Source of the DNA: Sulfurimonas sp. CG01_land_8_20_14_3_00_36_23
GTDB lineage: Bacteria > Campylobacterota > Campylobacteria > Campylobacterales > Sulfurimonadaceae
Assembly: GCA_002781365.1 (NCBI GenBank)
Contig: PETN01000016.1
Coordinates: forward strand, 1-64,000
DNA length: 64,000 nt
Direction of reading: 5' to 3'
Shown: piece by piece, positions 2,425 to 62,384 of the stretch
How the letters are laid out: each line of letters starts with the position of its first letter
Numbering within the stretch: position 1 is the first letter of the stretch
Position numbers and translations under genes: made by a program
Notes under the pieces: generated by a model
What the model was told of the DNA's origin: nothing
What the model saw: only the letters and a program-made list of their open reading frames with translations
Database searches by the model: none

Positions 2425-5361
2425 CTATGACTCCCCAAGCTCTTTAGGTTCACAAAGATGATAGCCCTGAGAATAGTCTATATCGTAGGATTTTACTTTA
2501 TCATAAACGGATTGGGTGTGAACAAACTCAGCGATTGTTTTAATATGCATTCGTTTTGCAAAACTGACAATAAGTTCTACAACAACTTGTGAACTCTCAT
2601 CTATATCTATATTTTTTATCAGAGAACCATCTATTTTTATATAATCAACATTTAACTTCATAAGATACTCAAAGTTGGAGTATCCTGTTCCAAAATCATC
2701 GATTGCAACTTGACAACCAAGTGCTTTTATCTCTTTTATAAATTTGTTAACATGCTCAAAATTTTTGATACCCTCAGACTCTACTAGCTCTATAACCACC
2801 TGATGTCCAATATTATAATCTTTTATTTTTCTTTTTAGGAAGGTTACAATCTCATCATTTAGGACATCATCAATCGTGAAATTGATAGAAAATTCACTCT
2901 TTGAATCCTTAAAGTGATGAAATGATTTTTCGATAACAATCTTTGTGATTGTGCTGTAGAGTCTTGCTTTTTTTGCAATATCTAAAAAGAAGAAAGGCGA
3001 GATAACCTTTTCCCCATCTCTCATGCGCACAAGACACTCATACTTACTTTCTTCACCTTGCGTGTTGGAGTATATCGGTTGGGCGAAGATGATAATGTTG
3101 TCACTCTTGATAGCATTTTTAATCTTTACCGTCATCTCTCTATTTTCTTGATGTCTCTTTTGAACATCATCCGCACTCTCAAAAGATAGAAAAGATTGTG
3201 AGGTATCTAGAGCTTTTCTGAGTGTCATCTCTGTGTTGAAAAAGATTTGAGATGGCTCTGCTGTTGCTATGCCTATTGTTAAATCAACATTGAAGTTGTC
3301 CTCCCCAATAGCTACAGTATTATGATCAAAATATTTAATAATATTTTTCATCTTTTTTGTAAACTCTAGAATTGGCATGTTTGTAGAGTCAAGTACAGCG
3401 AACTGCTCCCCATTTATTTTGTAGATTGAGTCTGCATTTTCAACGATGATTGTTTTTAAACTGGATGTGATGTTGATAAGAAGCTGTTCTCTTGTCTCTT
3501 TACCGTAAAAGTCATCGACATCTTTGAGTCTATTGATTTGGATTATTGCCAATTTCATCATGCTCTGATTTCCCTGAGAAAGCATCTCAAGAAGTTTTTG
3601 TCTGTTTGGTAAGAGTGTGGTGCCGTCCGTTGTCTGTTTTTGTATCTGTTGCTCTTTTTGAGTTACTTCAGACATGTCAGTTCGAATGGATATGAACTCC
3701 GTAATCTCATTGTTGTCCCCTAAAAGAGGTATGATAGAGCCACTTACATAATACTTCTCACCACGCTTATTTCTGTTAGTAATCCTGCCTCTCCAAACTT
3801 TTTTTTGAAGAATCGTGCTCCACATCTCTTCAAATACCGAACTAGGAACATCTTTGTGATTTACGATGTTGTGGGATTTTCCTATTAGCTCCTCTCTCGT
3901 GAAACCTGATATTTCGCAAAATGTATCATTCGCATAGGTGATAATTCCATTTATATCTGTTTTAGAAACGATTGAGCTTGCGTCTACAGCTTTTTTATAC
4001 TCTCGCAAGAGATTTTGTGAACTAATAAGCTCTTTCTCTTTTAAAGTGATATTTTCTGCAAACTTTTGTTCCTCTTTTTCAATCGGTTTTAAGATGAAGT
4101 GTAAACAAAGATAGCTAAAAAGCAGTAAAAAGAGGATGGTTAGGATGATACTTGTTAAGAGTATAGTAATAATGGAGTTGTTGATGAGAGTAGAGAGTTC
4201 CTGCTGGCTGATTTCTACTAAAATTGCGTACTGTTTTCCTAAGATGTTGAGCGGTGCAAAGGAACTATATACTTCTATCCCTCTATAACTTTTGTCTATC
4301 CCGTGAGAACTCTCACCATTTAAGGCTCTTTTTGCACTCTCCGAGTTGATGCTTATAATCCCAATGGTTGTAGATAAGGCCTTGACTAACTCGTTGTTGA
4401 GGCTGTACTTAAAGTGGCTTTCACTTCGCATGAGAGAATCATTTCCAACCAAGTATGCTTCGCCACTCTCTCCAAGTCCAATATCTGTACTGTAATTTGT
4501 ATGTGTCATGATTGCATTGAGTCTATTTGTGGAGAGTTGCACAACGACCACAGCAACCATTTTTCCATTTTTGAAAAGAGGAGTGCTCATAAATGCTTTT
4601 GGCTTATTCAAACTAGGTTCATAAGGGGAGAAATCCTCAAAATCTACACTTTGATGTGTCGATTTCAATGCTTTCTTGTAGACAAGAGCTAAAGCAGAAT
4701 CTTCAAAAACTCCTTTTTTCAAGTTCGTCGCAAAGTCATGCTCTTTTGTTACTGTATAGATGACATCCCCATTCATATTGATTAAGTAAATGTCACTAAA
4801 GTCATAGAGCTTGAGCATTTGTAAAAAGTAGCTATGGTATTTGTAGTGGGTGTCATCATAGCTTAAGTTTGCACTTGAAGCATAAAGATTTTTTTTATCT
4901 TGTGTGCTAAAAGGATTACTCGAGATATAGAGATACTGGAGCGTTTTTGTCGTGTAGTTTTTTGAGAGGTATGCTTTTGGATCTCTTTTTGGTTTGGCAT
5001 GTGGAACAGTATAGTTTATTTTTGTAATATTGTTTTTTATCTCCTCTTTGAGCGTCTTATAAACAAGCTGTCCCTCTTCCTCATCTTCGACTAACTTAAA
5101 ACTGCGTTCAAACTCTTCAAAAGCATTTAAAGTAGTTTGGCTCTCTCCTAAGGCTAAAGCATCTTTTTTCCTCTCATCAAAATACTCTTCTATATTGGAT
5201 GAAAGGAGATGCTTCACGACGGAGAGTTTTTCAAAGTAGGATTTACTTAAAGAGCTCGTTATCTGTGTATAGGTGATATAAGAGGAGAGAGAGACTACGC
5301 TTACAATAAGCATAAGCAGTGTAATTATCTCTTTTTTGAAGCGATTAAATATAATACTCAT
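2425..5361 (-). CDS. membrane sensor protein with PAS, degenerate GGDEF and EAL domains (probable c-di-GMP phosphodiesterase)
   Basis: PAS text, NGEQF in place of GGDEF, EAL-type text ECLVR / VVIELVESEG / IDDFGTGYSNF / YIKIDGSLI. Confidence 0.85.
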   Translation of the reverse strand: MSIIFNRFKKEIITLLMLIVSVVSLSSYITYTQITSSLSKSYFEKLSVVKHLLSSNIEEYFDERKKDALALGESQTTLNAFEEFERSFKLVEDEEEGQLVYKTLKEEIKNNITKINYTVPHAKPKRDPKAYLSKNYTTKTLQYLYISSNPFSTQDKKNLYASSANLSYDDTHYKYHSYFLQMLKLYDFSDIYLINMNGDVIYTVTKEHDFATNLKKGVFEDSALALVYKKALKSTHQSVDFEDFSPYEPSLNKPKAFMSTPLFKNGKMVAVVVVQLSTNRLNAIMTHTNYSTDIGLGESGEAYLVGNDSLMRSESHFKYSLNNELVKALSTTIGIISINSESAKRALNGESSHGIDKSYRGIEVYSSFAPLNILGKQYAILVEISQQELSTLINNSIITILLTSIILTILFLLLFSYLCLHFILKPIEKEEQKFAENITLKEKELISSQNLLREYKKAVDASSIVSKTDINGIITYANDTFCEISGFTREELIGKSHNIVNHKDVPSSVFEEMWSTILQKKVWRGRITNRNKRGEKYYVSGSIIPLLGDNNEITEFISIRTDMSEVTQKEQQIQKQTTDGTTLLPNRQKLLEMLSQGNQSMMKLAIIQINRLKDVDDFYGKETREQLLINITSSLKTIIVENADSIYKINGEQFAVLDSTNMPILEFTKKMKNIIKYFDHNTVAIGEDNFNVDLTIGIATAEPSQIFFNTEMTLRKALDTSQSFLSFESADDVQKRHQENREMTVKIKNAIKSDNIIIFAQPIYSNTQGEESKYECLVRMRDGEKVISPFFFLDIAKKARLYSTITKIVIEKSFHHFKDSKSEFSINFTIDDVLNDEIVTFLKRKIKDYNIGHQVVIELVESEGIKNFEHVNKFIKEIKALGCQVAIDDFGTGYSNFEYLMKLNVDYIKIDGSLIKNIDIDESSQVVVELIVSFAKRMHIKTIAEFVHTQSVYDKVKSYDIDYSQGYHLCEPKELGES
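4996..5006. repeat. uptake-like motif copy GGCATGTGGAA
   Basis: exact core, within 2425-5361. Confidence 0.75.
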
Positions 5362-7624: not shown

Positions 7625-8875
7625 TTAAATCAGGTACTTAAGCCCTGTTTTATTGCAATACGACTCCAACATAGCATGCTCAAAATCATTGTTTGTTGCA
7701 TACTGGTACCCAAAACTCTCCCTCCACATGCCGTGTTCTTCCATGCAGAGGTAAAAAAAGAGTTTGTTGTGCCAAGGTTTAAAACTCTCATACGCATGTT
7801 TAAACATCTCCACTTTCGTAGCATGTGGATAGGAACTTTTACCACTTGCATCGGCATGTGGAATCTGCGTGATTTTAGTTCTAAACTCACGAGAGCGAAG
7901 CTGTTTGATAACAGGTTTTATAAAAGTGAGTGTACCAAAACTGACAAGAGCTACCTCTTCTGGCTTGAACTCTCGTTGGAGTCTCTCATAAACCTCTTGA
8001 TACTCCGCAAGATAGTTCTCATACTCTACAATAGGGTGGAAGTGAAAACCTACTTTGACACCTCTGTCTGCAACACTACGTGCTGCATTGATACGTTTGT
8101 CAAGAGAGGCGGCGAGGTGCTCCTCATTTTCTATAATCGTCTTTGTGTTGAGCGACCAAGTACAAAGTATGTTTTTAGGGACATCATTTTCTAAAAAGTA
8201 CTTGATGTTATCGGACTTGGTTTTAAACTCTAAAATAACATTTGGATTCTCTCTTGCAAAAAGAAAAAGTGCGTCTAAAATACCCTCACGATTTCCCCAC
8301 ATAAGAGAGTCAGAACTTTGCCCCGTTCCTATGTGATAGGTTCTGTTTTGGTCAAGTTGAAGGTTTGCAAGTTTTTCAGCAAAACTGCTGTCGAAAGTGA
8401 TGGTGTTTTGGTTGTAAAAAGATTGGATAGAACAGTAAGAACAGTCAAAACCACAGCTCTCAACTGCATCAAGTGTGAGAAGATTGCAACATCTTGTTTT
8501 TTCACTTGCAACGGGACAAAGCCCTAACCCAAACCCCTCTTTAGGCTCTGTTTTGAAAGTGTATCTCTGCTCCGTAGGAACATTTTTTAACTCAAAATTT
8601 TTATAAGAGTTAGGTGCGTTTCTTATAGCCTCATACGCCTCTCTTAAACGTCTAAAAACTACTTTTTTTTGGTCGTGGTCTGGAAAAATTTCTACAATAC
8701 TTTTCTCATTCCACATGCCAAGATCTCTGGCGATATCTATTATCTGTTTGAGCTCTTGGTGAGAAAACTTTAGCACATACGCTTTTTGCTTTATGAAGTT
8801 TTGTTGGGCATGTGGAAGTTTAGAAAAAAGAGTGTTTTCGATAGAGGTATTAAATTTTTCTGTATATGTATTCAT
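7625..8875 (-). CDS. spore photoproduct lyase family radical SAM protein
   Basis: CPVASEKTRCCNLLTLDAVESCGFDCSYCSIQSFY with CxxxCxxC-like cluster motif. Confidence 0.75.
   Translation of the reverse strand: MNTYTEKFNTSIENTLFSKLPHAQQNFIKQKAYVLKFSHQELKQIIDIARDLGMWNEKSIVEIFPDHDQKKVVFRRLREAYEAIRNAPNSYKNFELKNVPTEQRYTFKTEPKEGFGLGLCPVASEKTRCCNLLTLDAVESCGFDCSYCSIQSFYNQNTITFDSSFAEKLANLQLDQNRTYHIGTGQSSDSLMWGNREGILDALFLFARENPNVILEFKTKSDNIKYFLENDVPKNILCTWSLNTKTIIENEEHLAASLDKRINAARSVADRGVKVGFHFHPIVEYENYLAEYQEVYERLQREFKPEEVALVSFGTLTFIKPVIKQLRSREFRTKITQIPHADASGKSSYPHATKVEMFKHAYESFKPWHNKLFFYLCMEEHGMWRESFGYQYATNNDFEHAMLESYCNKTGLKYLI
7723..7732. repeat. uptake-like motif copy TCCACATGCC
   Basis: exact core, SPL-like gene. 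Confidence 0.7.
7853..7863. repeat. uptake-like motif copy GGCATGTGGAA
   Basis: exact core, SPL-like gene. Confidence 0.75.
8709..8721. repeat. uptake-like motif copy TTCCACATGCCAA
   Basis: exact 13-mer, SPL-like gene. Confidence 0.8.
8807..8817. repeat. uptake-like motif copy GGCATGTGGAA
   Basis: exact core, SPL-like gene. Confidence 0.75.
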
Positions 8876-11072: not shown

Positions 11073-11417
11073 ATGATTTTAGGAAAATGTCCCTATTGTG
11101 AAGATGGAAGTATAGAAGTAAGAGACAAAGTGGTAAGGGGCAAAAAAGTAAAGCTCTATGCTTGTACGAATGCTCACTGGAAAACTGAAGATGGAGAGAT
11201 GTTTGAACCAACAGAACTTTCCACATGCCAATTTAAGATATGGCAAAACGCATTAGCAAAATATGGAAAATGGCTCTCCTACAAAGAGGTAAGAGAGTTG
11301 CTAGAGGGAGAACCAGTTGAGGTAGAGCTTTTGAGTAAAAAGTATGGAAAGAAAATTTATTACGTCAAAGAGATGATTTTAAATGAGGAGTATGGAGTAA
11401 GCGTCATCTGGGACTAG
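11073..11417 (+). CDS. small zinc-ribbon-like hypothetical protein
   Basis: CPYC...C pattern at the N-terminus. Confidence 0.5.
   Translation: MILGKCPYCEDGSIEVRDKVVRGKKVKLYACTNAHWKTEDGEMFEPTELSTCQFKIWQNALAKYGKWLSYKEVRELLEGEPVEVELLSKKYGKKIYYVKEMILNEEYGVSVIWD
11219..11231. repeat. uptake-like motif copy TTCCACATGCCAA
   Basis: exact 13-mer. Confidence 0.8.
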
Positions 11418-16893: not shown

Positions 16894-17244
16894 ATGAGAC
16901 ATCGTCATGGATACCGTAAACTAGGTCGTACAAGCGCACACCGTGCAGCTTTGTTAAAAAACCTTAGTATTTCGTTAATAGAACATGGTAAAATAGAAAC
17001 TACTGTTGAAAAAGCAAAAGAACTTAGTTCTTATGTAGAGAAACTTATCACAATCGCTGGTAAGAATGATTCTAATGCGCACAGAACAGTATTCGCGGCG
17101 CTTCAAAGTAAAGAAGCAACAAAAAAATTAGTGAATGAAATAGCTCCTAAGTACGTTGAACGTGCTGGTGGTTATACAAGAATTAATAGAACTAGAATTC
17201 GTCGTGGTGATGCTACTACAATGGCGTTTATCGAACTAGTATAA
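16894..17244 (+). CDS. rplQ: 50S ribosomal protein L17
   Basis: [24 protein letters not shown]. Confidence 0.98.
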
Positions 17245-17252
17245 TTTTAATC

Positions 17253-17280
17253 TTGGCATGTGGATTATTCCACATGCCAA
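17253..17280. terminator. inverted pair of the uptake-like motif, TTGGCATGTGGA-TTAT-TCCACATGCCAA (12-bp perfect stem)
   Basis: Perfect 12-bp arms, 4-nt loop, 8 nt after the rplQ stop; each arm carries the recurrent motif. No strong U-tract. Confidence 0.7.
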
Positions 17281-22671: not shown

Positions 22672-23655
22672 GTGTTAAGAGTACTCTTGACACTTGCTTT
22701 TGTACTCCTTACGCTTCAAGCTTCATGCAGGGGTGGATATAATTCTTGCAAACAAAAAATTATTGACTCCAACTCCATAGTAGACCAAACCCTTCAAATT
22801 CCCGTAGGTTCAAATAAAAGGCTTGTTTTTTCCCTTTCAGTTCCACATGCCAAGATACTCAAATCTGACCCCTTCTTAGGACTCTACTTGATAGAAGATA
22901 AAAAAGGTTTTAAATATCCATTTAGAATCAACAATAATCTCTCTTTAGGCAAAGCGGCTGTGGATAAAACGATGGCAATAGAAGGAAAGATTCTTAAAAA
23001 GCAGGTTGGGCTCAACAGTTTTGCTACTTTTAGTGAACCACTCAGTGTTCCTGCGCTGCTAACCAATAGTTGCTGTGCAATTGAAGGAATAGTGACAGGA
23101 AGAGGAATCATAGAAAAAGAGTATATTCAAAGATTTTTACAAACAGATGATACAAGATATGCTGATATTGGGATTCGTGTAATAGATGAAAAGAAGCGAG
23201 TTGTTGTCTCTTCTATAGACCCTTTTATGAGTAAGAACCCATTTAAAAAGGGTGATTGCATTTTAGAGCTTGATGGCAAGCGAGTGATGGGGAGTGCTGC
23301 ATTGATGAGAGAGATACTCTTTGCAAAAATCGGTTCATGTCACAAAGTAAAAATAAAACGAGGCACGCAAACTTTAACCATCACGGTAGTGAGTAAAAAA
23401 AGACATAGTGGCGGCTACAAAAGCGATACCTATCTGGAACAATACGGCTGGACGTTTGACAAAGATTTGAGAATCATAAAAATTGCAAAAGAGAGCAAAA
23501 AGTATGGGCTTAACCTTGGGGACAGATTGATTCAAGTAAATGGGGAAAAAGTAAAAAACCAAGAAGATATAGCAAAAAATATTTCAAATTTTAAAGATTA
23601 TGCCTCTTTACTCTTTGAGAGAGATCATTTTCAGTTTTTTGTGAATGTTAATTAG
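22672..23655 (+). CDS. PDZ-domain secreted/periplasmic protein
   Basis: GTG start, signal peptide, two PDZ-like stretches (KKGDCILELDGKRVMGS; YGLNLGDRLIQVNGEKV). Confidence 0.65.
   Translation: MLRVLLTLAFVLLTLQASCRGGYNSCKQKIIDSNSIVDQTLQIPVGSNKRLVFSLSVPHAKILKSDPFLGLYLIEDKKGFKYPFRINNNLSLGKAAVDKTMAIEGKILKKQVGLNSFATFSEPLSVPALLTNSCCAIEGIVTGRGIIEKEYIQRFLQTDDTRYADIGIRVIDEKKRVVVSSIDPFMSKNPFKKGDCILELDGKRVMGSAALMREILFAKIGSCHKVKIKRGTQTLTITVVSKKRHSGGYKSDTYLEQYGWTFDKDLRIIKIAKESKKYGLNLGDRLIQVNGEKVKNQEDIAKNISNFKDYASLLFERDHFQFFVNVN
22841..22853. repeat. uptake-like motif copy TTCCACATGCCAA
   Basis: exact 13-mer, PDZ gene. Confidence 0.8.
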
Positions 23656-24568: not shown

Positions 24569-26488
24569 ATGAGCAATGTAATGCGTCAAAAAATGGCAAA
24601 CACAATCAGGTTTTTAGCAGCAGATATGGTGCAAGCGGCAAACTCAGGACATCCAGGTGCCCCAATGGGACTCGCAGACATCGCTGTAGTTTTAAGTGAA
24701 CATCTCAATCATAATCCGAAAAATCCATCATGGCTCAACCGTGACAGATTGGTTTTTTCAGGCGGTCACGCAACGGGACTTATCTATGCACTCTACTATC
24801 TTTGGGGGTATGGGCTAGAAGTAGAAGATTTAAAAAACTTTCGTCAACTTGATTCAAAAACTCCAGGACATCCAGAGTTTGGACACACTGCAGGGATTGA
24901 GATTACAACAGGACCACTTGGTCAGGGAATCGCAAACGCTGTTGGTTTCTCTATGGCTTCAAAATTTGTAGGTGCGCAGGTTAACTCTGAAACTGCTGAA
25001 CTTATTGACCACAATGTTTACTGTCTTTGTGGTGATGGCGATTTGGAAGAGGGTATCTCTTATGAAGCTTGCTCTATCGCTGGACACAATAAACTTGATA
25101 ACTTAATCCTCATCTATGACTCAAATCGTATAACTATAGAGGGCTCAACAGATTTAAGTATCTCTGAAAATATTCGCATGCGATTTGAGTCTCAAGCTTG
25201 GGATGTTTTAGAGTGTGACGGACATGACTTTGATGCAATTGACGCAGCACTTACAACTGCAAAAACGAACAAAAAACCAACACTTATTATTGCAAATACA
25301 GTGATAGCAAAAGGTGCAGGAAAACTTGAAGGTTCCCATCATGCACATGGTGCTCCTCTTGGTGCAGAGATAATCGCAGAGGCAAAGTTGGCATGTGGAT
25401 TTGATGCCAATAAGAGTTTTCAAGTGGATGAAGATGTGATGATTCGCTTTAGATGTGCAATTGAAAAAGGTGATTTTTTAGAGCGTGAGTGGATTCATAG
25501 ACAAAAAACAGTTCCACTTATGGAGCAAAATGAAGCGCTTATAGCTTTAGAAAACCATGACTTTTCTCGTATTGAGTATCCAACTTTTGATAAAGCAGAT
25601 GCAACAAGAAATACAAATGGAAAGATTATGAATGCAATCGCGAGAGCTGTTCCAAGCTTTTTAGGTGGTTCAGCAGATTTAAGCCCATCCAATAAAACAA
25701 ACCTAGAAAATATGGGTGTTTATCCAAAGGGAAGAAATATCTACTTTGGTATCCGTGAACATGCAATGGCTTCTATCACAAATGCTATAGCGCTTTATGG
25801 ACCACTTTTGCCTTTTAGTGCAACTTTCTTTGTATTCTCAGACTACCTAAAGCCAGCTGCTAGAATTGCCGCACTTACAGGGATTCAACAGTTTTTTATC
25901 TGGACGCATGATAGTATCGGTGTAGGTGAAGATGGACCGACACACCAACCTATTGAACATCTTTCTCAGTTCCGTTCACTTCCAAACTTTTATGTTTGGA
26001 GACCTGCAGATGGAGCAGAAAATGTTGAAGCTTGGAAAACTGCGTTGACGATGCGTAAATCACCATCCGCATTTGTATGTTCAAGACAAAATCTAGCACT
26101 ACTTCCACATGCCAAAAAAGGGAGTGCAAGCCAAGGTGGGTACTTGCTTGCAAGTGATGAGGCTGCAACTATCACTTTGATGGCTTCGGGAAGTGAAGTA
26201 GAACTTGCTCTTAAAGTGAAAGAGGCATTGAGTGCAAAAGGTGAAAAAGTAAATGTGGTTTCAGTTCCGTGTTATGACCTTTTCATTGAGCAAGAGGAGT
26301 CATATATCGACTCTATCATCAAACCTGAGACGAAAAAAGTTGCTATAGAAGCTGCGAGAGGTTTAGAGTGGTATAAACTAGCAGACAGAGTAATAGGAAT
26401 GGATAGTTTTGGAGCATCCGCACCAGCTGAGGAGCTTTTTGATAAGTTTGGTTTTACAGTAGAAAATATTTTACAAAAAATCAAATAA
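24569..26488 (+). CDS. tkt: transketolase
   Basis: MANTIRFLAADMVQAANSGHPGAPMGLADIAVVL; GDGDLEEGISYEACSIAG; FGIREHAMASITNA. Confidence 0.97.
   Translation: MSNVMRQKMANTIRFLAADMVQAANSGHPGAPMGLADIAVVLSEHLNHNPKNPSWLNRDRLVFSGGHATGLIYALYYLWGYGLEVEDLKNFRQLDSKTPGHPEFGHTAGIEITTGPLGQGIANAVGFSMASKFVGAQVNSETAELIDHNVYCLCGDGDLEEGISYEACSIAGHNKLDNLILIYDSNRITIEGSTDLSISENIRMRFESQAWDVLECDGHDFDAIDAALTTAKTNKKPTLIIANTVIAKGAGKLEGSHHAHGAPLGAEIIAEAKLACGFDANKSFQVDEDVMIRFRCAIEKGDFLEREWIHRQKTVPLMEQNEALIALENHDFSRIEYPTFDKADATRNTNGKIMNAIARAVPSFLGGSADLSPSNKTNLENMGVYPKGRNIYFGIREHAMASITNAIALYGPLLPFSATFFVFSDYLKPAARIAALTGIQQFFIWTHDSIGVGEDGPTHQPIEHLSQFRSLPNFYVWRPADGAENVEAWKTALTMRKSPSAFVCSRQNLALLPHAKKGSASQGGYLLASDEAATITLMASGSEVELALKVKEALSAKGEKVNVVSVPCYDLFIEQEESYIDSIIKPETKKVAIEAARGLEWYKLADRVIGMDSFGASAPAEELFDKFGFTVENILQKIK
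25388..25399. repeat. uptake-like motif copy TTGGCATGTGGA
   Basis: exact core, tkt. Confidence 0.75.
26103..26115. repeat. uptake-like motif copy TTCCACATGCCAA
   Basis: exact 13-mer, tkt. Confidence 0.8.
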
Positions 26489-27834: not shown

Positions 27835-28584
27835 TTACTTTATAAAGGCTAGCAAAGAAGCAGTTACAGCCACATTTAAGGACTCAACCCCTCTATTCAT
27901 AGGTATACTTAGTGTGTCGTTACAAAGTATTTCAACCTCTGGGGAAACACCTTCACTCTCATTCCCTAGAACAAAGATTGTTTTGGCATGTGGAACTACA
28001 TCATAAATATTATGTTTGGCATGGGATGAGAGCGCATAAATTCTTGTATCACTGAGTGTTTTTAGGACTTCATCAATGGTATCACAAAAATATATAGGAA
28101 GTTTAAAGAGTGTTCCTGCACTTGCTTTTATGACAAGTGGAGAAATTTTTGCACTGTTTTTTTTAGGTAAGATAATTCCATCAACATTTCCAGCTGCGCA
28201 AGAACGAATAATCATTCCAAGGTTTTGCGGATTTTGGATACCATCGAGGGCTATGAGTTTAAAGGAGTGAAGCTTTTGGATCTCATTGGCATTTTGATAG
28301 GTTCGAGCGATGATATCTATGGCAACACCTTGGTCTTGCTTGGCATTTTTACTTATGCGACTCAGTGCATGTTTTGAGTGGTAGCTTACTTCAAGATTCC
28401 TCTTTTTTGCTAAATCTAAAATAGTTTTCACTGCACCATCTGTTTTGTTCGAGTCTGCCATGTGGATTTTATGAATACCTATCGTCTCATCTTGTAAAAC
28501 TTCTATAACTACATTTCTGCCATAGAGCGTGATGACTTTATCAAAATATGTTTTTTTATCTAAATACTCTTGTGAATCTTGCAA
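27835..28584 (-). CDS. TrmH/SpoU family rRNA methyltransferase
   Basis: LIALDGIQNPQNLGMIIRSCAAGNVDGIILP; VLGNESEGVSPEV; SIPMNRGVESLNVAVTASLLAF. Confidence 0.92.
   Translation of the reverse strand: MQDSQEYLDKKTYFDKVITLYGRNVVIEVLQDETIGIHKIHMADSNKTDGAVKTILDLAKKRNLEVSYHSKHALSRISKNAKQDQGVAIDIIARTYQNANEIQKLHSFKLIALDGIQNPQNLGMIIRSCAAGNVDGIILPKKNSAKISPLVIKASAGTLFKLPIYFCDTIDEVLKTLSDTRIYALSSHAKHNIYDVVPHAKTIFVLGNESEGVSPEVEILCNDTLSIPMNRGVESLNVAVTASLLAFIK
27983..27995. repeat. uptake-like motif copy TTGGCATGTGGAA
   Basis: exact 13-mer, rRNA methyltransferase gene. Confidence 0.8.
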
Positions 28585-33633: not shown

Positions 33634-34411
33634 TATGAATGTAATTAAGGTACTTGGAGCATATGGAACAAAGGCTAAAGGTTTTGGAACAAGTGCGTTC
33701 CATTTAAATGAAAAAAACGTAATTGATGCGGGAAATTTACTTAAACCATTAGTAGAGAAGTCTGCAAAAATTGAAAACATTTGGTTGACACATACGCACT
33801 TAGATCATATATGTGATATAGCTTACATATTAGATAACTATTATGCTTTAAGAGATGTAACATTAAATATCATAGGACTACCAGAAACAATTGCAGCAAT
33901 TAAAAAACATTTTCTTAATGATTTGATTTGGCCAGATTTTTCTCTTATTCGATTACATAACTCATCTGCAATGAGTGTGAAATATATAGAAGTGGAATGT
34001 GGAAAGACATATCAAATTGGTGAAGAAGAGCATATTGAAGCATTTAAAACAGATCATACTGTACCAAGCTGTGGATATATATATACAAAAAAAAGACAAT
34101 CTATACTGATAACAGCTGATACTTATTCTTTAGCAAATGCATGTAAAATTATCGATTCAAGAACAGATATTAATTCTGTGGTTATAGAATGTTCTTTTCC
34201 ATCAAATATGGCTAGTTTAGCATTAGAGAGCAAACATTTAACACCAAAGACACTCTTTAATCAGTTGGAAACTTTAAAAAGAGAGAATTTTCAACTCTAT
34301 ATTAATCATATAAAGCCTCTTTATTTGGAACAAATAACAAAAGAAATAGCCGCATACAGTGGCAAATGGGAGCCAATAATATTAAAAGATGAAGATATTA
34401 TAAAATTTTAG
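33602..34411 (+). CDS. MBL-fold class II 3',5'-cyclic-nucleotide phosphodiesterase-like protein
   Basis: LGAYGTKAKGFGTSAFHLNEKNVIDAGNLL; THTHLDHICDIAYILDN; FKTDHTVPSCGYIY. Confidence 0.75.
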   Translation: MLETNLKMSFDMNVIKVLGAYGTKAKGFGTSAFHLNEKNVIDAGNLLKPLVEKSAKIENIWLTHTHLDHICDIAYILDNYYALRDVTLNIIGLPETIAAIKKHFLNDLIWPDFSLIRLHNSSAMSVKYIEVECGKTYQIGEEEHIEAFKTDHTVPSCGYIYTKKRQSILITADTYSLANACKIIDSRTDINSVVIECSFPSNMASLALESKHLTPKTLFNQLETLKRENFQLYINHIKPLYLEQITKEIAAYSGKWEPIILKDEDIIKF

Positions 34412-34466
34412 AAAAAATGCTTGACAATGAAAATATATTGCACTATAATTCTGGCTCAAATTCGAT

Positions 34467-34543
34467 GCCGACATAGCTCAGTTGGCTAGAGCAGCTGATT
34501 TGTAATCAGCAGGCCCGGGGTTCGAATCCTCGTGTCGGCACCA
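34467..34543 (+). tRNA. tRNA-Thr (TGT)
   Basis: GCCGACA/TGTCGGC acceptor, anticodon loop TTTGTAA, CCA encoded. Confidence 0.95.
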
Positions 34544-34599
34544 TTGAATTTTGAATATTAGAAACAGTGTTAGACCAGATAAAACAAAAATATTGTTAT

Positions 34600-34684
34600 G
34601 GTGAGATAGTCAAGTGGCCAACGACGGCGGACTGTAAATCCGCTCCCTACGGGTTCAGAGGTTCGACTCCTCTTCTCACCACCA
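34600..34684 (+). tRNA. tRNA-Tyr (GTA)
   Basis: GGTGAGA/TCTCACC acceptor, ACTGTAAAT loop, long variable arm, CCA. Confidence 0.95.
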
Positions 34685-34698
34685 TTTCAATGGCACAT

Positions 34699-34775
34699 GC
34701 GGGCGTAGCTCAGTTGGCTAGAGCGTCAGCCTTCCAAGCTGAGGGTCGAGGGTTCGAGTCCCTTCACCCGCTCCA
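34699..34775 (+). tRNA. tRNA-Gly (TCC)
   Basis: GCGGGCG/CACCCGC acceptor, anticodon loop CTTCCAA, CCA. Confidence 0.94.
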
Positions 34776-34917
34776 TTGAAAATTCTGGAAGCTGAAGTAC
34801 AATTTCTACTTACTTCATATAACTATATAATAATATATAGCCATCTGTCTACACACAATTTACTAATATTAAAAATAGAATCATGCAATTATTTTTTGTC
34901 GTAAAATAAATATAAAT

Positions 34918-34992
34918 GCTCTCGTGGCTCAGGGGTAGAGCACTTCCTTGGTAAGGAAGAGGCCGGCGGTTCAAATCCGCTCGTGAGCTCCA
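34918..34992 (+). tRNA. tRNA-Thr (GGT)
   Basis: GCTCGTG/CGTGAGC acceptor, anticodon loop TTGGTAA, CCA. Confidence 0.94.
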
Positions 34993-35092
34993 TGAAATAA
35001 TTAATATTAAAATTTATTTTTATGATTAAGAAATAATTGAATGATTTTTGGATATAATTCCATTTCAATTCAAAACAAAGTCGGAGGACACT

Positions 35093-36292
35093 ATGGCAAA
35101 AGAAAAGTTTGAACGTAACAAACCGCATGTTAATATTGGTACGATTGGTCACGTTGACCACGGTAAAACAACATTAACGGCAGCGATTACTGCAGTACTA
35201 GCGGTAACGAATGGTGCAAAAATGATGGATTACGATGCAATCGATAATGCTCCTGAAGAAAGAGAGCGTGGTATTACTATTGCTACTTCACATGTTGAGT
35301 ACGAAACAAATACTCGTCACTATGCACACGTTGACTGTCCAGGTCACGCGGATTATGTTAAAAACATGATTACTGGTGCTGCTCAAATGGATGGTGCTAT
35401 TCTGGTTGTTTCTGCAGCGGATGGCCCAATGCCACAAACTCGTGAGCATATTCTTTTATCTAAACAAATTGGTGTTCCAGCCATGGTTGTTTTTATGAAC
35501 AAAGAAGATATGGTTGATGATGAAGAACTATTAGAATTAGTTGAAATGGAAATTCGTGAACTTTTGGATATGTATGATTTCCCAGGTGATGATACTCCAA
35601 TCACTGCAGGTTCTGCAACTTTAGCTCTTGCTGAAGCTAAAACAGGTACTCTTGGACCATGGTCAGCTAAAGTTCAAAAACTAATGGATACTGTAGATGC
35701 ATTTATTCCTGAGCCAGCTCGTGAAACAGATAAAGATTTCTTAATGCCTGTTGAAGACGTATTTTCAATTTCAGGACGTGGTACAGTTGTAACTGGTCGT
35801 ATTGAACGTGGTCAAGTTAAAATTGGTGAATCAATTGAAATCGTAGGTATCCGTGATACACAAACTACAACTGTAACTGGTATCGAAATGTTCCGTAAAG
35901 AGATGACAGTTGGTGAAGCAGGTGATAACTGTGGTATCCTAGTACGTGGTATAGGTAAAGATGATGTTGAGCGTGGTCAAGTTCTTTGTAAACCAAAAAC
36001 TATTACTCCTCATACAAAATTTACAGCTGAAATCTATGTACTAAGCAAAGATGAGGGTGGTCGTCATACTCCATTCTTTACTAACTACCGTCCACAATTT
36101 TATGTTCGTACAACGGATGTAACTGGTGCTATTACTTTACCAGAAGGTACTGAAATGGTTATGCCTGGTGATAATGTAAGCATTACTGTTGACCTAATTC
36201 ACCCAATTGCTATGGAAAAAGGTACTAAGTTCGCTATCCGTGAGGGTGGAAGAACTGTTGGTGCTGGTGTTGTAGCTGAGATTCTTGCATAA
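35093..36292 (+). CDS. tuf: elongation factor Tu
   Basis: [32 protein letters not shown]; track start 35048 is upstream of the true ATG at 35093. Confidence 0.98.
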
Positions 36293-36336
36293 TTCGCTTT
36301 TGCGAATTTGCATTGATCCTCTAAAAGGTTAATATA

Positions 36337-36489
36337 ATGAGAGAAACAATACATCTAGGATGTGAGAAGTGTACTCGTCGTAACTATCACACTAGCAAAA
36401 ATAAAAAAATTCATACTGAAAAATTTTCGGTGAGAAAATATTGTAAATTTTGTCGTGAGCATACTGTTCACAAAGAGATGAAGTTATAA
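36337..36489 (+). CDS. rpmG: 50S ribosomal protein L33
   Basis: MRETIHLGCEKCTRRNYHTSKNKKIHTEKFSVRKYCKFCREHTVHKEMKL (not in ORF track). Confidence 0.97.
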   Translation: MRETIHLGCEKCTRRNYHTSKNKKIHTEKFSVRKYCKFCREHTVHKEMKL

Positions 36490-36498
36490 TATTGTTTT

Positions 36499-36522
36499 AA
36501 GCCAGTATTAACTGGCTTTTTT
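36499..36522 (+). terminator. terminator-like hairpin AAGCCAGT-ATTA-ACTGGCTT-TTTT
   Basis: 8-bp perfect stem plus T-run, ending at the base before tRNA-Trp. Confidence 0.7.
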
Positions 36523-36598
36523 AGGCGTATAGCTCCAATGGTAGAGCACCGGATTCCAAATCCGGGTGCTGGGAGTTCGAGTCTCTCTACGCCTGCCA
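36523..36598 (+). tRNA. tRNA-Trp (CCA)
   Basis: AGGCGTA/TACGCCT acceptor, loop ATTCCAAAT, CCA. Confidence 0.95.
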
Positions 36599-36662
36599 CC
36601 ATTTATTATTAGTAAGGCTTAAGGGCTTTATTTATAATAAATGTAGTTTTGGGAAAGAAATA

Positions 36663-36842
36663 ATGAATTTAAGTACACACATAAAAAATGCAAAAGCAGA
36701 ATTAGCTAAAGTAATCTTTCCTACTAAAGGGCAAGTGAAACAAGCTTATATATCAGTTGTTATAGTTGTAAGTATAATAGCTGCTTTTTTAGCGTTGGTA
36801 GATTTACTTATGTCATCAATAATGTCTGCAATTTTAGGTTAA
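36663..36842 (+). CDS. secE: preprotein translocase subunit SecE
   Basis: MNLSTHIKNAKAELAKVIFPTKGQVKQAYISVVIVVSIIAAFLALVDLLMSSIMSAILG (not in ORF track). Confidence 0.95.
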   Translation: MNLSTHIKNAKAELAKVIFPTKGQVKQAYISVVIVVSIIAAFLALVDLLMSSIMSAILG

Positions 36843-36851
36843 GGAGTAAAT

Positions 36852-37379
36852 ATGGCACATCAATGGTACTCTATACAGACCTACGGAAATGAACGAGTTG
36901 TTCGTTTAGCAATTTTAAATATGATAGAAGAGATGGGACTAGAAGACTTTATTGAAGAGGTGATTGTTCCTACTGAAGATGTTATAGAAGTAAAAGATGG
37001 CAAAAAAAAGATAACTGAGAGATCTTTATACTCTGGGTATGTGTTTGCTAAAATTGACTTAAATACAGAAGTACAACATTTAATACAATCGCTACCAAAG
37101 GTATCAGGATTCATTGGTGAAGCGAATGTTCCTACACCTTTAAGTGAGCATGATATTAATGTTATTCTCGATCGTGTGAACAACCGTGCAGCTCCAAAAC
37201 CAAAAATCTTTTTTGATAATGGTGAAACAGTTAGAATTACAGATGGTCCATTTGCAAACTTTACAGCTACGGTTGATGAGTATGATTTGGAACATGGAAC
37301 GCTTAAGCTAAATGTATCAATTTTTGGTAGAGCTACCCCTGTTGATATATCGTACACGCAAGTTGAAAAAATAATTTAA
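36852..37379 (+). CDS. nusG: transcription termination/antitermination factor NusG
   Basis: WYSIQTYGNERVVRLAI; FANFTATVDEYDLEHGTLKLNVSIFGRATPVDI. Confidence 0.97.
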   Translation: MAHQWYSIQTYGNERVVRLAILNMIEEMGLEDFIEEVIVPTEDVIEVKDGKKKITERSLYSGYVFAKIDLNTEVQHLIQSLPKVSGFIGEANVPTPLSEHDINVILDRVNNRAAPKPKIFFDNGETVRITDGPFANFTATVDEYDLEHGTLKLNVSIFGRATPVDISYTQVEKII

Positions 37380-37398
37380 TTAAACAAAGGAAATAAGA

Positions 37399-37824
37399 AT
37401 GGCAAAAAAAGTTACAGGCTATATAAAGCTACAAATTAACGCTGGTGCAGCAAATCCTGCACCTCCAGTAGGACCAGCATTAGGACAACGTGGTGTTAAC
37501 ATCATGGAGTTTTGTAAATCATTTAATGAAAAAACAAAAGATAAGATGGGATTTAAAGTTCCTGTAATTATCACAGTTTATAGTGATAAAAGTTTTTCTT
37601 TTATTACTAAGCAACCTCCAGCTTCTGCTCTTCTTATGAAAGCGGCAGGACTTAAAAAAGGTACTGATAATCCTCTTAAAAATGTTATAGGACAGATTAC
37701 ACGTGCTCAGCTTATGGAAGTTGTTAATCAGAAAATTGAAGACTTAAATACAGATGATTTAGAGATGGCGGCAAATACTATCGCTGGTTCAGCTCGTTCA
37801 ATAGGTATTAAAGTAGTAGACTAA
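37399..37824 (+). CDS. rplK: 50S ribosomal protein L11
   Basis: [34 protein letters not shown]. Confidence 0.98.
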
Positions 37825-37911
37825 TACTCCTTAGTTGAGTATTAATTTTTAAAATCATCGACCACAGTGATTTAAAATTTTGTGGCAGAATTTTATACGG
37901 AGAATTTGAAG

Positions 37912-38604
37912 ATGAGTAAAAGATATAAACAATTAATAGAAAAAATTGATGTTACAAAAGCATATTCTGTTGCAGAGGCAACATCAACAGTAAGAGAATT
38001 AAAAAGCGCAAAGTTTGACGAAACTGTTGAAATTGCTATGAATTTAAATGTAGATCCAAGACATGCAGATCAAATGGTTCGTGGTGCAGTTGTGCTTCCA
38101 CATGGTACTGGTAAGACAGTTCGTGTTGCAGTATTTGCTAAAGGTGTAAAAGCGGATGAAGCTAAGGCTGCTGGTGCTGATATCGTTGGTACAGATGATT
38201 TAGTTGCACAAATTAAAGAGGGTGTATTTAACTTTGATGTAGTTGTTGCAGCGCCAGACTGTATGGGACTTGTTGGTCAAATCGGTCGTATTCTTGGACC
38301 AAAAGGTATGATGCCTAACCCTAAAACTGGCACTGTAACTCCAGATGTTGCTACTGCTGTTAAAAATGTTAAAGGCGGTCAAGTAACATTCCGTGTTGAC
38401 AAAAAAGGTAATATCCATGCTGGTATTGGTAAAGTAAGTTTTGAAGCAGAAAAAATTGCTGAAAACTTAGCATCTTTTGTTGCTGCTATCAACAAACAAA
38501 AACCTGCAACTGCAAAAGGTCGTTACATTAAAAATGCTGCACTTTCATTAACTATGAGTCCAGCAGTTAAATTAGATGTTATGGCATTAGCTGACATCAG
38601 ATAG
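37912..38604 (+). CDS. rplA: 50S ribosomal protein L1
   Basis: [13 protein letters not shown]...[30 protein letters not shown]. Confidence 0.98.
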
Positions 38605-38609
38605 TTTTA

Positions 38610-38631
38610 TAGCTCATCATTTGATGAGCTA
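38610..38631 (+). terminator. hairpin TAGCTCATCA-TT-TGATGAGCTA followed by T-rich tract
   Basis: 10-bp perfect arms right after the rplA stop, then GTTTTTTAAGTTTTT. Confidence 0.65.
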
Positions 38632-38717
38632 TGTTTTTTAAGTTTTTATTTTGAGATAACTTTATCTTAAAGTAAAGATTTTTATTATGTAAAAATCTGA
38701 ATTATTTGGACTAAAGA

Positions 38718-38795
38718 TAGTAGGGGTATCTGCCGAGTTGGTAGTTAGCTTAATTGGCCTTTCCCTCCCCGCTTGAAGTTATGTCTAGAAAGGAG
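38718..38795 (+). promoter_or_regulatory. ribosomal protein L10 leader (probable)
   Basis: Conserved-looking structured text between rplA and rplJ (GTAGGGGTATCTGCCGAG...GGCCTTTCCCTCCCCGCTTGAAG). Confidence 0.5.
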
Positions 38796-38801
38796 AAATA
38801 T

Positions 38802-39284
38802 ATGCTTAAATCTAAAAAAGCTGAAGTAATTGAGCAATTAACTACTTCATTTGCTAATACAACAGCAGTTGTTATATGTGATTACAAAGGTTTGACTGTA
38901 AGTCAACTTGAAGAGTTACGTAAATCTGCTAAAGCAAAGGACACAAGTGTTCAGGTTGTAAAAAATACATTAGCTACTATCGCATTAAATAATGCTGGTA
39001 TGAGTGGTGTAGAGATTAAAGATACAAATATTTTTATTTGGTCTGATGATGTTATTGGTGCTGCAAAAGTAGCTGCTGATTTCGCTAAGACAAATGATAA
39101 ATTTGTACTTAAAGCTGGTTATTTAGATAAAGAACCTGCAGACGTAACTAAAATAGAAGCATTTGCTAAGCTTCCAGGTCGTGAAGAACTTCTTGGTATG
39201 CTTGCTGCTACTTGGATGGCTCCAATTACTAATATGGCTGTTGGAATCAATGCTTTACGAATAAAGTTAGAAGCAGAAGCTTAG
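38802..39284 (+). CDS. rplJ: 50S ribosomal protein L10
   Basis: MLKSKKAEVIEQLTTSFANTTAVVICDYKGLTVSQLEELRK; the track start at 38754 lies in the leader. Confidence 0.96.
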   Translation: MLKSKKAEVIEQLTTSFANTTAVVICDYKGLTVSQLEELRKSAKAKDTSVQVVKNTLATIALNNAGMSGVEIKDTNIFIWSDDVIGAAKVAADFAKTNDKFVLKAGYLDKEPADVTKIEAFAKLPGREELLGMLAATWMAPITNMAVGINALRIKLEAEA

Positions 39285-39348
39285 TCTTCACTTCTTGTAA
39301 GTGTGAATTAATTCACTAAAATATAATGATATATAAAAGGAGCTAAAA

Positions 39349-39720
39349 ATGGCTGTAACTAAAGAAGACGTATTAGAATTTATCTCAGGACTTTCTGTAT
39401 TAGAACTTTCTGAATTAGTAAAAGAGTTTGAAGAAAAATTTGGTGTATCTGCTCAACCAGTTGCAATGGCTGGTGGTGCTGTTGCTGGTGCTGCTGCTGC
39501 TGATGAACAAACTGAGTTCAATGTAATTATTACTGATGCTGGCGCTAAAAAAATTGGTGTTATTAAAGCTGTTCGTGCACTTACAGGTCTTGGCTTAAAA
39601 GAAGCAAAAGAAGCTACTGAAGCATTACCTTCTACAATTAAAGAAGGTGTTGATAAAGATACTGCTGAAGCTGCAAAGAAAGAGCTTGAAGAAGCTGGTG
39701 CAACTGTAGAAATTAAATAA
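39349..39720 (+). CDS. rplL: 50S ribosomal protein L7/L12
   Basis: [15 protein letters not shown]...[24 protein letters not shown]. Confidence 0.98.
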
Positions 39721-39737
39721 TTTTTACACCTAAAGAA

Positions 39738-39822
39738 TTACATGGAAAATAATTTTTCTATGTAATCTTTGATTTTCTGGGCGCTTTTACGATGTGATTT
39801 TGGTCACTCCGTAAAAGTGCCC
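39738..39822 (+). promoter_or_regulatory. two back-to-back stem-loops between rplL and rpoB (attenuator / processing region)
   Basis: TTACATGG...TATGTAA, then GGGCGCTTTTACG...CGTAAAAGTGCCC (13 bp with one G.T). Confidence 0.6.
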
Positions 39823-39928
39823 TTATGTCGTTTATAAGCACTTTTGAATCAATCTATCTAGAGACGTCTAGATACGATACTCTTAATCAACTATGATTAA
39901 GCCCTAACAAACAACTTATCGAGGTTAG

Positions 39929-48590
<8,662 letters not shown>

Positions 48591-48607
48591 TATCTCAATC
48601 TTTTAGC

Positions 48608-48636
48608 TTTGGCATGTGGAAATTCCACATGCCAAA
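48608..48636. terminator. inverted pair of the uptake-like motif, TTTGGCATGTGGAA-A-TTCCACATGCCAAA (14-bp perfect arms)
   Basis: 29-nt perfect inverted repeat 18 nt after the rpoC stop. Confidence 0.75.
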
Positions 48637-55379: not shown

Positions 55380-56201
55380 ATGACGATTGTTGCTACCCCA
55401 CAAGAATTAAAAGATTATTTAAAAGATATAAATAAAAGTATCGGGTTTGTTCCAACAATGGGGGCTTTGCATGAGGGACATATTTCACTTATAAAAAAAG
55501 CTCGCCAAGAGAATGAAATTGTTATTGTCTCTATCTTTTTAAATCCTACACAGTTTTTAAAAGGGGAAGATTTAGAGAAGTATCCAAAAAAAGATGAGGC
55601 AGATAAGCAGATATGTAAGTTAAGCGGAGTCGATATTCTCTTTTTTCCACATGCCAAAGATATCTACTCGGAGGATGAAGTAAGTCTGCAAGCTCCCAAT
55701 GTAAGAGGCTATGTTCTCGAAGGGGCTAGCAGACCTTCACATTTTAACGGTGTCTTGACTGTAGTTATGAAGCTTTTAAATATAGTAAATCCTACAAATG
55801 CGTATTTTGGAAAAAAAGATGCACAACAGTTGCACTTAATATCTCTGATGGTAAAGCAGATGTTTATGAGTGTCAATGTTGTTGGGGTTGATACATTAAG
55901 AGAAAAAGATGGGCTTGCATTTAGCAGTAGAAATATCTATTTGAGTAAAGAGGAGAGACAAGAGGCACTTAAAATATCGGCTTCTCTCTACCAAGCTGGC
56001 AGAATGATTGGCAAAAATATTTTAGATACAAAACAAATCGTAGAGAAGATGAGAGAGATACTTGAACCATTGGAGATATCTTATGTTGAAGTGCTCAATC
56101 GTGATTTTGAATTAATTAGGCATGTGGAAATTTCAAACACGATTATTTTAGTGGAAGCGAAGGTGGGAAGTACGAGATTACTCGATAATATTTGGCTTTA
56201 A
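55380..56201 (+). CDS. panC: pantothenate synthetase
   Basis: GFVPTMGALHEGHISLI; RPSHFNGVLTVVMKL; FGKKDAQQLHLI. Confidence 0.97.
   Translation: MTIVATPQELKDYLKDINKSIGFVPTMGALHEGHISLIKKARQENEIVIVSIFLNPTQFLKGEDLEKYPKKDEADKQICKLSGVDILFFPHAKDIYSEDEVSLQAPNVRGYVLEGASRPSHFNGVLTVVMKLLNIVNPTNAYFGKKDAQQLHLISLMVKQMFMSVNVVGVDTLREKDGLAFSSRNIYLSKEERQEALKISASLYQAGRMIGKNILDTKQIVEKMREILEPLEISYVEVLNRDFELIRHVEISNTIILVEAKVGSTRLLDNIWL
55645..55657. repeat. uptake-like motif copy TTCCACATGCCAA
   Basis: exact 13-mer, panC. Confidence 0.8.
56119..56129. repeat. uptake-like motif copy GGCATGTGGAA
   Basis: exact core, panC. Confidence 0.75.
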
Positions 56202-58812: not shown

Positions 58813-58822
58813 CTACTCTTCC

Positions 58823-59254: not shown

Positions 59255-59401
59255 CTGAACTCCTTTTTAATTGAAAATAAATAAGCAAATATAGTTCCAA
59301 TTTTATTGTAAATCTACTTTAAGCATAGTTTTATAATATCTTGAAGATAATACTACCAAGGTTACTAGAGTAATCTATTTTTTTTATTTAAGGAGTTCTT
59401 T

Positions 59402-59824: not shown

Positions 59825-59839
59825 AAACATTTTTTTATT

Positions 59840-59866
59840 GCGTTCCCAAGTTCAACTTGGGAACGC
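59840..59866. repeat. REP-like palindrome GCGTTCCCAAGTT-C-AACTTGGGAACGC
   Basis: 13-bp perfect arms followed by ATAT; related to the palindrome 20 nt downstream. Confidence 0.75.
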
Positions 59867-59885
59867 ATATCAAAAAACTCTTTCT

Positions 59886-59910
59886 CGTTCCCACGTTCTA
59901 CGTGGGAATG
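59886..59910. repeat. REP-like palindrome CGTTCCCACGT-TCT-ACGTGGGAATG
   Basis: 11-bp arms with one G.T pair, followed by CATAT. Confidence 0.75.
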
Positions 59911-59998
59911 CATATAAGCTCTCAACCTTTTCCCTCTCTAACCAAAATCTTCAAATCAAAATAATCTAAATAATGCTACTATACTAACCCAATGAAAA

Positions 59999-60478: not shown

Positions 60479-60494
60479 TATCAAGAGGATTGCC

Positions 60495-62384
60495 ATGTAT
60501 TTTTATGAAGTTGCAATCCTCGCATCCCCTTTATCTTCCCTTACCTACCACTTTGACATAGAGATAAAAATAGGCACACTTGTAGATGTAGTTCTTAGAA
60601 ATAAAACTTCCAAAGGTGTTGTAGTTTCCACATGCCAAAAACCAGAGTTTAAAACGAATGAAATTGTAGGAGTGAGCGAATTTTTCTACTCCAAAAAACA
60701 AGTTAAATTAGCCACATTTATATCGAACTATTATTTCTCTTCTTTGGGAGAAGCGCTTGGGTTGATGACTCCTTATGATGCACAGGCGAAGGCAAGCCAT
60801 CGCTTCCAAGAGAGTAAAGCAACCGATAACAACGGCCAAGGAACTGATGGCTTGCCTTTAGCAGAGAGTAGTATCACACTCTCAAAAAAACAGAATGAAG
60901 CCTTGTCTTCTCTACAAAAACATAATGTCTCTTTACTCTTTGGCGATACAGGAAGCGGTAAAACAGAGATATATATGAAATATTTCGAGCAGATATTGGC
61001 ATGTGGAAGTCGTTCAATATTTTTAATGCCTGAAATCTCTTTGACTCCTCAGATGGAGACAAGACTCAAAGAGCACTTTGGAGATGCTGTTGTTATGTGG
61101 CACTCAAAACTGACTCCTCTTCAAAAGAGAAAAGCCTTAGAAAAAATCTACGATGGAACTGCGTATATCATCGCTGGTCCAAGGTCTGCACTCTTTTTAC
61201 CTATTGAAAATTTGGGTCTAATTGTCGTAGATGAAGAGCATGACGATAGTTATAAGTCCTCATCAAGACCACGTTACAATGCTCGTGACATAGCTATTTA
61301 TATGGGTAAACTTTATGATGTTCCCGTAGTTTTAGGAAGTGCAACACCCTCTCTGAACTCTTATGTGAAGTTTCCACATGCCAGACTTAAGGGTGGGCAC
61401 TTCTCTTCAAACAAAGAGTTTGTTTATGAGCGCTCCGTTGAAACACTCTCTCCCCTTATTCTAAGTACATTAAAAGCGAGTGTTGAAGCTAAAGAGCAAT
61501 CGATAGTTTTCCTTCCAACGCGTGCAAATTTTAAGTATCTTATTTGTCAAGATTGTGGGCATACCTATGAGTGTGTCTTTTGTAGTATTGGGATGAGTAT
61601 CCATCAACATTCACGCGCTCTGAAGTGTCACTACTGTAATGCAACGCAGGCGATACCTCAAGTCTGTAGTGAGTGCGGTAGCGGTAATCTTACAAGTTCG
61701 CGCCTTGGAACTGCCGAAGCAGTAAAGAACATTAGTGAAGAGTTTCCACATGCCAATGTTGAGCAGTTCGACAGAGATAGCATTACCACGCAAAACAAAC
61801 TTAAAAAAGCACTTAAGAGGTTTAATGACAAAGAGACAGATATTCTTGTTGGAACGCAGATGTTAAGTAAAGGGCATGATTACCATGGGGTTACTTTAGC
61901 TGTTGTGCTTGGTATGGATAACATGCTCAATATGGGTGATTACAGAGCTAGAGAAAAAGCACTCTCCTCTTTAATCCAAGTCGCAGGAAGAAGTGGTAGA
62001 AAAAAGAGCGCAAAGGTATTGGTTCAGAGTTTTAATGAAGAGTTTTTTAGTACATATATGGACAACTACGAAGCCTTTTTAGAAGAGGAAAAAACCTATA
62101 GAGAAGATTTGTACCCGCCTTACAAAAAACTTTGCAGAGTTCTCTTTAGCGATAAAAATGGACTTAAAGCAAAAGAGCAGATGCTAAAAATGCAAGAGGC
62201 TCTGAAAAGTTTTTCGCATGTGGAAATTGTTGGTTATGGAAAGTGCGGGATAGAGAGAGTTGCAAACAAATACAGATTTGAGATTTTACTTCGTAGTGAT
62301 AAAAGTACAGACATCATCAAAGCAGTTTCCACATGCCGCGTCGATTTGGCTGAGGTTGATATGGACCCTATCGAGTTTGGGTAA
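60495..62384 (+). CDS. priA: primosomal replication restart helicase PriA
   Basis: LLFGDTGSGKTEIYMKYF; VVDEEHDDSYKSSSRPRYNARDIAIY; zinc-binding CQDCGHTYECVFC...CHYCNATQAIPQVCSECGS. Confidence 0.96.
   Translation: MYFYEVAILASPLSSLTYHFDIEIKIGTLVDVVLRNKTSKGVVVSTCQKPEFKTNEIVGVSEFFYSKKQVKLATFISNYYFSSLGEALGLMTPYDAQAKASHRFQESKATDNNGQGTDGLPLAESSITLSKKQNEALSSLQKHNVSLLFGDTGSGKTEIYMKYFEQILACGSRSIFLMPEISLTPQMETRLKEHFGDAVVMWHSKLTPLQKRKALEKIYDGTAYIIAGPRSALFLPIENLGLIVVDEEHDDSYKSSSRPRYNARDIAIYMGKLYDVPVVLGSATPSLNSYVKFPHARLKGGHFSSNKEFVYERSVETLSPLILSTLKASVEAKEQSIVFLPTRANFKYLICQDCGHTYECVFCSIGMSIHQHSRALKCHYCNATQAIPQVCSECGSGNLTSSRLGTAEAVKNISEEFPHANVEQFDRDSITTQNKLKKALKRFNDKETDILVGTQMLSKGHDYHGVTLAVVLGMDNMLNMGDYRAREKALSSLIQVAGRSGRKKSAKVLVQSFNEEFFSTYMDNYEAFLEEEKTYREDLYPPYKKLCRVLFSDKNGLKAKEQMLKMQEALKSFSHVEIVGYGKCGIERVANKYRFEILLRSDKSTDIIKAVSTCRVDLAEVDMDPIEFG
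60626..60638. repeat. uptake-like motif copy TTCCACATGCCAA
   Basis: exact 13-mer, priA. Confidence 0.8.
60996..61008. repeat. uptake-like motif copy TTGGCATGTGGAA
   Basis: exact 13-mer, priA. Confidence 0.8.
61372..61383. repeat. uptake-like motif copy TTCCACATGCCA
   Basis: exact core, priA. Confidence 0.8.
61744..61756. repeat. uptake-like motif copy TTCCACATGCCAA
   Basis: exact 13-mer, priA. Confidence 0.8.
62327..62337. repeat. uptake-like motif copy TTCCACATGCC
   Basis: exact core, priA. Confidence 0.75.

Follow-up and report, generated by a model that had tools for sequence, protein, structure and literature searches.

A frequent genome word in Sulfurimonas is probably a DNA uptake sequence with clade-specific dialects

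We find that TTTCCACATGCCAA is probably the DNA uptake sequence of a Sulfurimonas species, by far the best explanation of its pattern and one to which we assign a probability of about 0.86. The window, as we call the 64-kb stretch of DNA analysed here, belongs to a draft genome of 2.43 Mb in 102 contigs (G000). The word is real, occurs throughout the genome and looks functional: its core TCCACATGCC occurs as 22 exact copies in the window, against 0.06 expected from dinucleotide shuffles (largest count in 100 shuffles: 1), and 887 times in the whole draft genome, where base composition alone predicts about 2 copies and a reversed control is found 0 and 1 times on the two strands. The original prediction, that this lineage carries a new uptake sequence, thus gains support from the sequence, with density, strand balance, rank, non-mobility, non-polarity and hairpin pairs all as predicted.

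The 22 sites first listed for the window all proved to be real as exact 10-mers, with coordinates correct to within 0–3 nt. Nine of them lie at 4996–5005 (−), 7723–7732 (+), 7853–7862 (−), 8710–8719 (+), 8807–8816 (−), 11220–11229 (+), 22842–22851 (+), 27985–27994 (−) and 31131–31140 (−). Two more exact copies fall in the transketolase gene at 24569–26488 (25390–25399, −; 26104–26113, +) and two in panC at 55380–56201 (55646–55655, +; 56119–56128, −); the remaining copies form two inverted pairs or lie in priA, as described below. The longest stretch of the window free of the core runs from 31141 to 48610 (17.5 kb) and spans rpoB, rpoC and the genes before them.

In 321 kb sampled from the draft genome, TCCACATGCC was the commonest of all 10-mers (119 copies), and its 30 one-mismatch forms together reached 36 occurrences, 17 of them TCCACATGCT. 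Aligned copies gave the consensus AtTTCCACATGCCAA(a), outside which conservation drops sharply; T precedes the core at a frequency of 0.89, and A follows it at 0.80 and again at 0.75. The full word is non-palindromic and about 14 bp long. Strands are balanced, with 12 copies on the plus and 10 on the minus strand of the window and 463 forward and 424 reverse copies genome-wide, and the density over the genome is about 1 copy per 2.7 kb. These values bear out a near-even orientation (about 10 vs 12), flanks biased to TTT/AAA, a density of 1 per 2–4 kb and a top rank among words, all of which had been reported or predicted from the window. Along 224 kb of contig C1, 15 of the 89 copies were intergenic, against 4.6 expected; most others lay inside genes, where they occupied all reading frames with one frame favoured.

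Copies of the core also form close tail-to-tail inverted pairs, 44 of them genome-wide against 2.4 expected. All six pairs that we folded gave strong hairpins, and four of the five pairs with mapped neighbour genes sit 3–21 nt past a stop codon, confirming the inverted pairs at gene ends that had been noted in the window. One such pair (17255–17278, made up of 17255, −, and 17269, +) lies downstream of rpoA, near the end of its operon, and forms a hairpin 11 nt past the stop of the open reading frame at 16894–17244 (−20.8 kcal/mol, z −7.8). The other pair in the window (48611–48633; 48611, −, and 48624, +) forms a hairpin 21 nt past the rpoC stop (−21.0 kcal/mol, z −5.3).

We counted TCCACATGCC in 228 genomes of the family, 135 of them from the genus Sulfurimonas. 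Only certain Sulfurimonas species had it in the hundreds; elsewhere in the family it stayed at background level. A search for enriched words in sequence from about 70 genus genomes then revealed others at similar density, and whole-genome counts confirmed three of them, so that the genus is described here by four: A (TCCACATGCC), B (TCTACATGTA, up to 515 copies per genome), C (CTGCGTTTA, up to 782) and E (TAGCATCTA, up to 615). Under strict thresholds, 63 of the 135 genus genomes are strong carriers of a single one of the four words, and none carries two. Minor forms were TTTCCACATGCTAA (G201), CTGCGTGAGG (G101) and TCTACATCCA (G140). Thus the comparison with related genomes that had been proposed as a check showed that Sulfurimonas relatives share the word or bear a dialect of their own. 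The words follow clades and switch repeatedly, with 17 changes on a tree of PriA and ComEC against 42 with shuffled labels, and the A word appears in two separated groups on this tree. Flanks are weaker for CTGCGTTT and TAGCATCT than for TCCACATGCC, which makes it less certain that they belong to the same system. These scans found no strong word in roughly half of the genus, though most of these genomes have comEC; some of these species may have undetected dialects, and others may lack specificity. Word lists from 20 kb of a single genome are too short to rule out weak dialects in species scored as having none. Clade-specific dialects go beyond what had been claimed from the window and are the strongest argument that the word serves in uptake or self-recognition.

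Dialects replace one another at homologous sites. Homologous positions were taken from codon alignments of priA and comEC, with in-frame shifts as the null. A coincided with B at 5 of 13 positions against 0.52 expected (0 of 2000 shifts), with E at 4 against 0.46 expected, and with C at 3 against 0.53 expected. The priA gene of the window (60495–62384, +; NF004069/TIGR00595) contains five copies of the word and illustrates this pattern. At 60627–60636 (+), the same word stands at the homologous site in G117, G150 and G179, with the B type in G086, G088 and G095. The copy at 60998–61007 (−) is common to G133 and G147, and that at 61373–61382 (+) to G117, G133, G136, G147 and G150. The copy at 61745–61754 (+) is common to G117, G133, G136 and G150, with the C type at this site in G193 and G156. 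The last, at 62328–62337 (+), reads TTTCCACATGCC in G000, G117 and G133, is of the B type in G088 and G149 (TTTCTACATGTAGA in the latter), and is E-like in G200 and G217, which have a TAGATGC form. These dialect changes are point substitutions within conserved gene sequence, not insertions.

The high copy number and species-specific sequence would also suit a polar chromosome signal, such as a Chi-like recombination site or a KOPS-like segregation signal. Balanced strands had been held to speak against this in the window, an argument that is valid only within one replichore; tested there, along 224 kb of contig C1 where every bin shows a GC skew that is positive or close to zero, TCCACATGCC occurs 45 times on the plus and 44 times on the minus strand, and so is not replication-polar. 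Orientation relative to priA was 97/98 for C words and 35/46 for E words, and that of TCCACATGCC in the priA regions of other species was 30/16 (p 0.054, from a small sample in which priA itself is heavily represented). We consider a polar signal largely refuted and leave it a negligible probability. The hairpins formed by inverted pairs at gene ends raise another explanation, that the word belongs to a family of transposable or REP/MITE-like repeats or serves as a terminator. However, flanks 15–80 nt from the copies resemble one another no more than random sequences do (similarity 0.270 vs 0.269), so the word is not a transposed repeat; this lack of flanking homology refutes mobile spread and answers the question of whether copies are confined to one mobile family in the negative. 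Terminators fare no better, given that the 44 pairs account for only about 88 of the 887 copies and that most copies stand alone within genes. A repeat or terminator origin is accordingly just as hard to credit.

There are two further alternatives. The word may be a highly iterated chromosomal signal unrelated to uptake, kept by a nucleoid protein, a methylase or a repair or recombination bias, like HIP1, the very dense palindrome of cyanobacteria. Several relatives have words, TTACATGTAA and CTACATGTAG, that resemble HIP1 in being palindromic and very dense; TTACATGTAA is likewise a very frequent genome word. In contrast, the word of the window is non-palindromic and about 14 bp long, species-specific dialects replace one another at homologous sites, and the hairpin pairs adopt a preferred configuration, as in the uptake sequences of Haemophilus and Neisseria, which are used in pairs (PMC1852404). 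We regard this reading as unlikely. Alternatively, the word could be an epigenetic self-mark, a methylase site whose methyl group is read during uptake, as in Campylobacter jejuni, a member of the same phylum that discriminates DNA by methylated RAATTY (PMC10046745). C. jejuni also resembles Sulfurimonas in having a T2SS/T4P-like apparatus and a pilin-like competence gene before priA (Cj0683, PMC10046745). What C. jejuni reads, however, is the methylation of a common 6-mer, short and frequent enough that enrichment is unnecessary, whereas the Sulfurimonas words are 10–14 bp long and enriched several hundred-fold, and comparison of the dialects revealed no methylase-like site common to them. 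We give an epigenetic mark only a slim chance.

Under the preferred reading, an uptake sequence, we infer a receptor, an uptake bias and a barrier to gene flow. A minor pilin or comparable receptor on the DNA-uptake pseudopilus would bind the word on extracellular DNA; word-bearing fragments would enter through the secretin and reach ComEC as a single strand, DprA would protect them, and recombination would follow. Because fragments with perfect words would enter more often, recombination would spread perfect words and remove variants. If receptor specificity shifted in a lineage, old words would become the new dialect in place by point mutation, and such conversion would therefore make the word a recognition barrier between species as well. 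Close inverted pairs may have been co-opted as hairpins at the 3′ ends of operons, as those of Haemophilus and Neisseria have been.

Genes for uptake are present. ComEC was found in 123 of the 135 genus genomes, and in the genome of the window comEC lies at C1:67258–68025, 3 kb beyond the window, with DprA on contig C32 and a GspC-M type II secretion cluster with a secretin on contig C44. Ten pilin-like open reading frames were detected in this genome, two of which immediately precede priA in the window. P1 (59402–59824, +; N_methyl PF07963) is a type IV pilin-like gene with a C-terminal part that varies between species, and P2 (59999–60478, +), also a type IV pilin-like gene, is conserved and stands directly before priA. 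In C. jejuni, the pilin-like Cj0683, encoded just before priA, is essential for starting DNA uptake (PMC10046745), and we infer that P1 and P2 are part of the uptake machinery. Two or three pilin-like genes stand ahead of priA genus-wide. Across the genus, the N-terminus of P1 is almost fixed and its C-terminal part highly variable, a pattern that looks as if it were under diversifying selection.

We compared P1, P2 and an orphan GspH/FimT-like pilin as candidates for the word receptor; none of the three covaries with dialect, and no receptor emerged from this comparison. After correction for PriA divergence, P1, P2 and ComEC showed no extra similarity within dialects. The orphan pilin (C92:32103–32795 in G000; HIRYTQHLAMVDDK...FDxLGRP...PETGY) is near-universal, present in about 80 other genus genomes and often at contig ends; it was not closer among TCCACATGCC species and carried no dialect signal, and a fold search with its model, of middling confidence (pLDDT 73), gave no significant match.

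Some genomes appear to have lost the word. G151 and G207 retain about 140 copies, while their word-rich sister species have about 1300. The comEC gene of G151 is interrupted by an 8.1-kb insertion of 29% GC (C15:15229–23354), on which a GspH/FimT-like pilin gene lies together with several unrelated open reading frames. This insertion is insufficient as the cause of the low count, as the sister genome G207 has the same count and a comEC that looks intact; word loss therefore began before or without the insertion. G110 has only 71 copies despite an intact comEC, and also contains a repeated TGCTTCGTTCCTCGCAATG element, with about 6 copies in 60 kb. The viral contigs listed with the 14-mer had single copies in all but one case, mostly chance-like, in a scan that is not a measure of depletion.

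The best explanation of the sequence comparisons is that Sulfurimonas would be a third lineage with an uptake sequence and species dialects, beside Neisseriaceae and Pasteurellaceae. These two are the only groups named for sequence-specific uptake in a review (PMC5031613) and a 2025 paper (PMC12616744), and both known families of uptake words belong to Proteobacteria (PMC12616744). Like the Sulfurimonas word, the DUS of Neisseriaceae (GCCGTCTGAA and its known dialects) is short, present in hundreds to thousands of copies on both strands, arranged in terminator-like hairpin pairs and divided into clade-specific dialects (PMC3630211). The putative Sulfurimonas uptake word differs from the DUS, whose receptor is ComP, in its unrelated sequence, in its occurrence in another phylum and in that the words of some relatives are palindromic; no ComP homologue was identified for it. 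The USS of Pasteurellaceae (AAGTGCGGT) shares with it a core and flanking A/T tract, perfect copies that far outnumber near-matches and a biased configuration of hairpin pairs. It differs in that the sequence and machinery lineage of Sulfurimonas are unrelated and that one genus has a larger number of dialects, at least four besides the minor forms. The receptor of the Pasteurellaceae USS is not established, with ComN and PpdA as predicted candidates.

In the open literature, we found no paper joining Sulfurimonas with the term uptake sequence, no Campylobacterota uptake word among the matches listed, and no report of natural transformation or uptake for any Sulfurimonas. A search for the words themselves returned only unrelated primer and reporter sequences among the matches listed. 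On this coverage of open-access papers, the putative Sulfurimonas uptake word is likely, though not proven, to be new. If the reading is true, this would be a third and apparently independent case, in another phylum and with many dialects in one genus. Some dialect bearers are cultured, harmless chemolithotrophs, which would make it possible to test directly how uptake words originate, switch and keep species apart. The hunt for the receptor would gain built-in comparative power, and the word would offer a practical route to transform Sulfurimonas, which are ecologically major bacteria.

Related words extend beyond the genus. In one genus of family f10, most of the species sampled have 1000–1500 sites of the palindromic relative TTACATGTAA per genome; several genera of the window's own family have hundreds, and a control word occurs 1–9 times in the TTACATGTAA-dense genomes. 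Genomes of f10 genus g39 with dense TTACATGTAA include G278, G330, G343, G417, G445, G457 and G472. In families with Campylobacter- or Helicobacter-sized genomes, TTACATGTAA has 0–9 sites, with a few exceptions (78 in G515 and 1059 in G526, genus g74 of f3). In G022, a genome of 55% GC, 40 kb hold 50 copies of the AT-rich TTACATGTA, where 0.09 would be expected. The uptake word may descend from the TTACATGTAA palindrome. We lean towards a broader account at the level of the phylum, in which DNA self-recognition in Campylobacterota would go back to an old palindromic CTTACATGTAAG-type word, today at 1000–1500 sites per genome in f10 and hundreds in other genera of the window's family, that gave rise to at least four mutually exclusive Sulfurimonas dialects, converted in place and acting as gene-flow barriers between species.

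Other over-represented words were seen in single genomes. A CTCATCGATG-type word is over-represented in G024 (genus g10), where TCATCGATG occurs 12 times in 40 kb against 0.7, and is possibly another genome word. G153 has 12 copies each of GTACTTTAGT and GCACTAAAGT in 17 kb, against 0.06 expected, probably a local repeat array.
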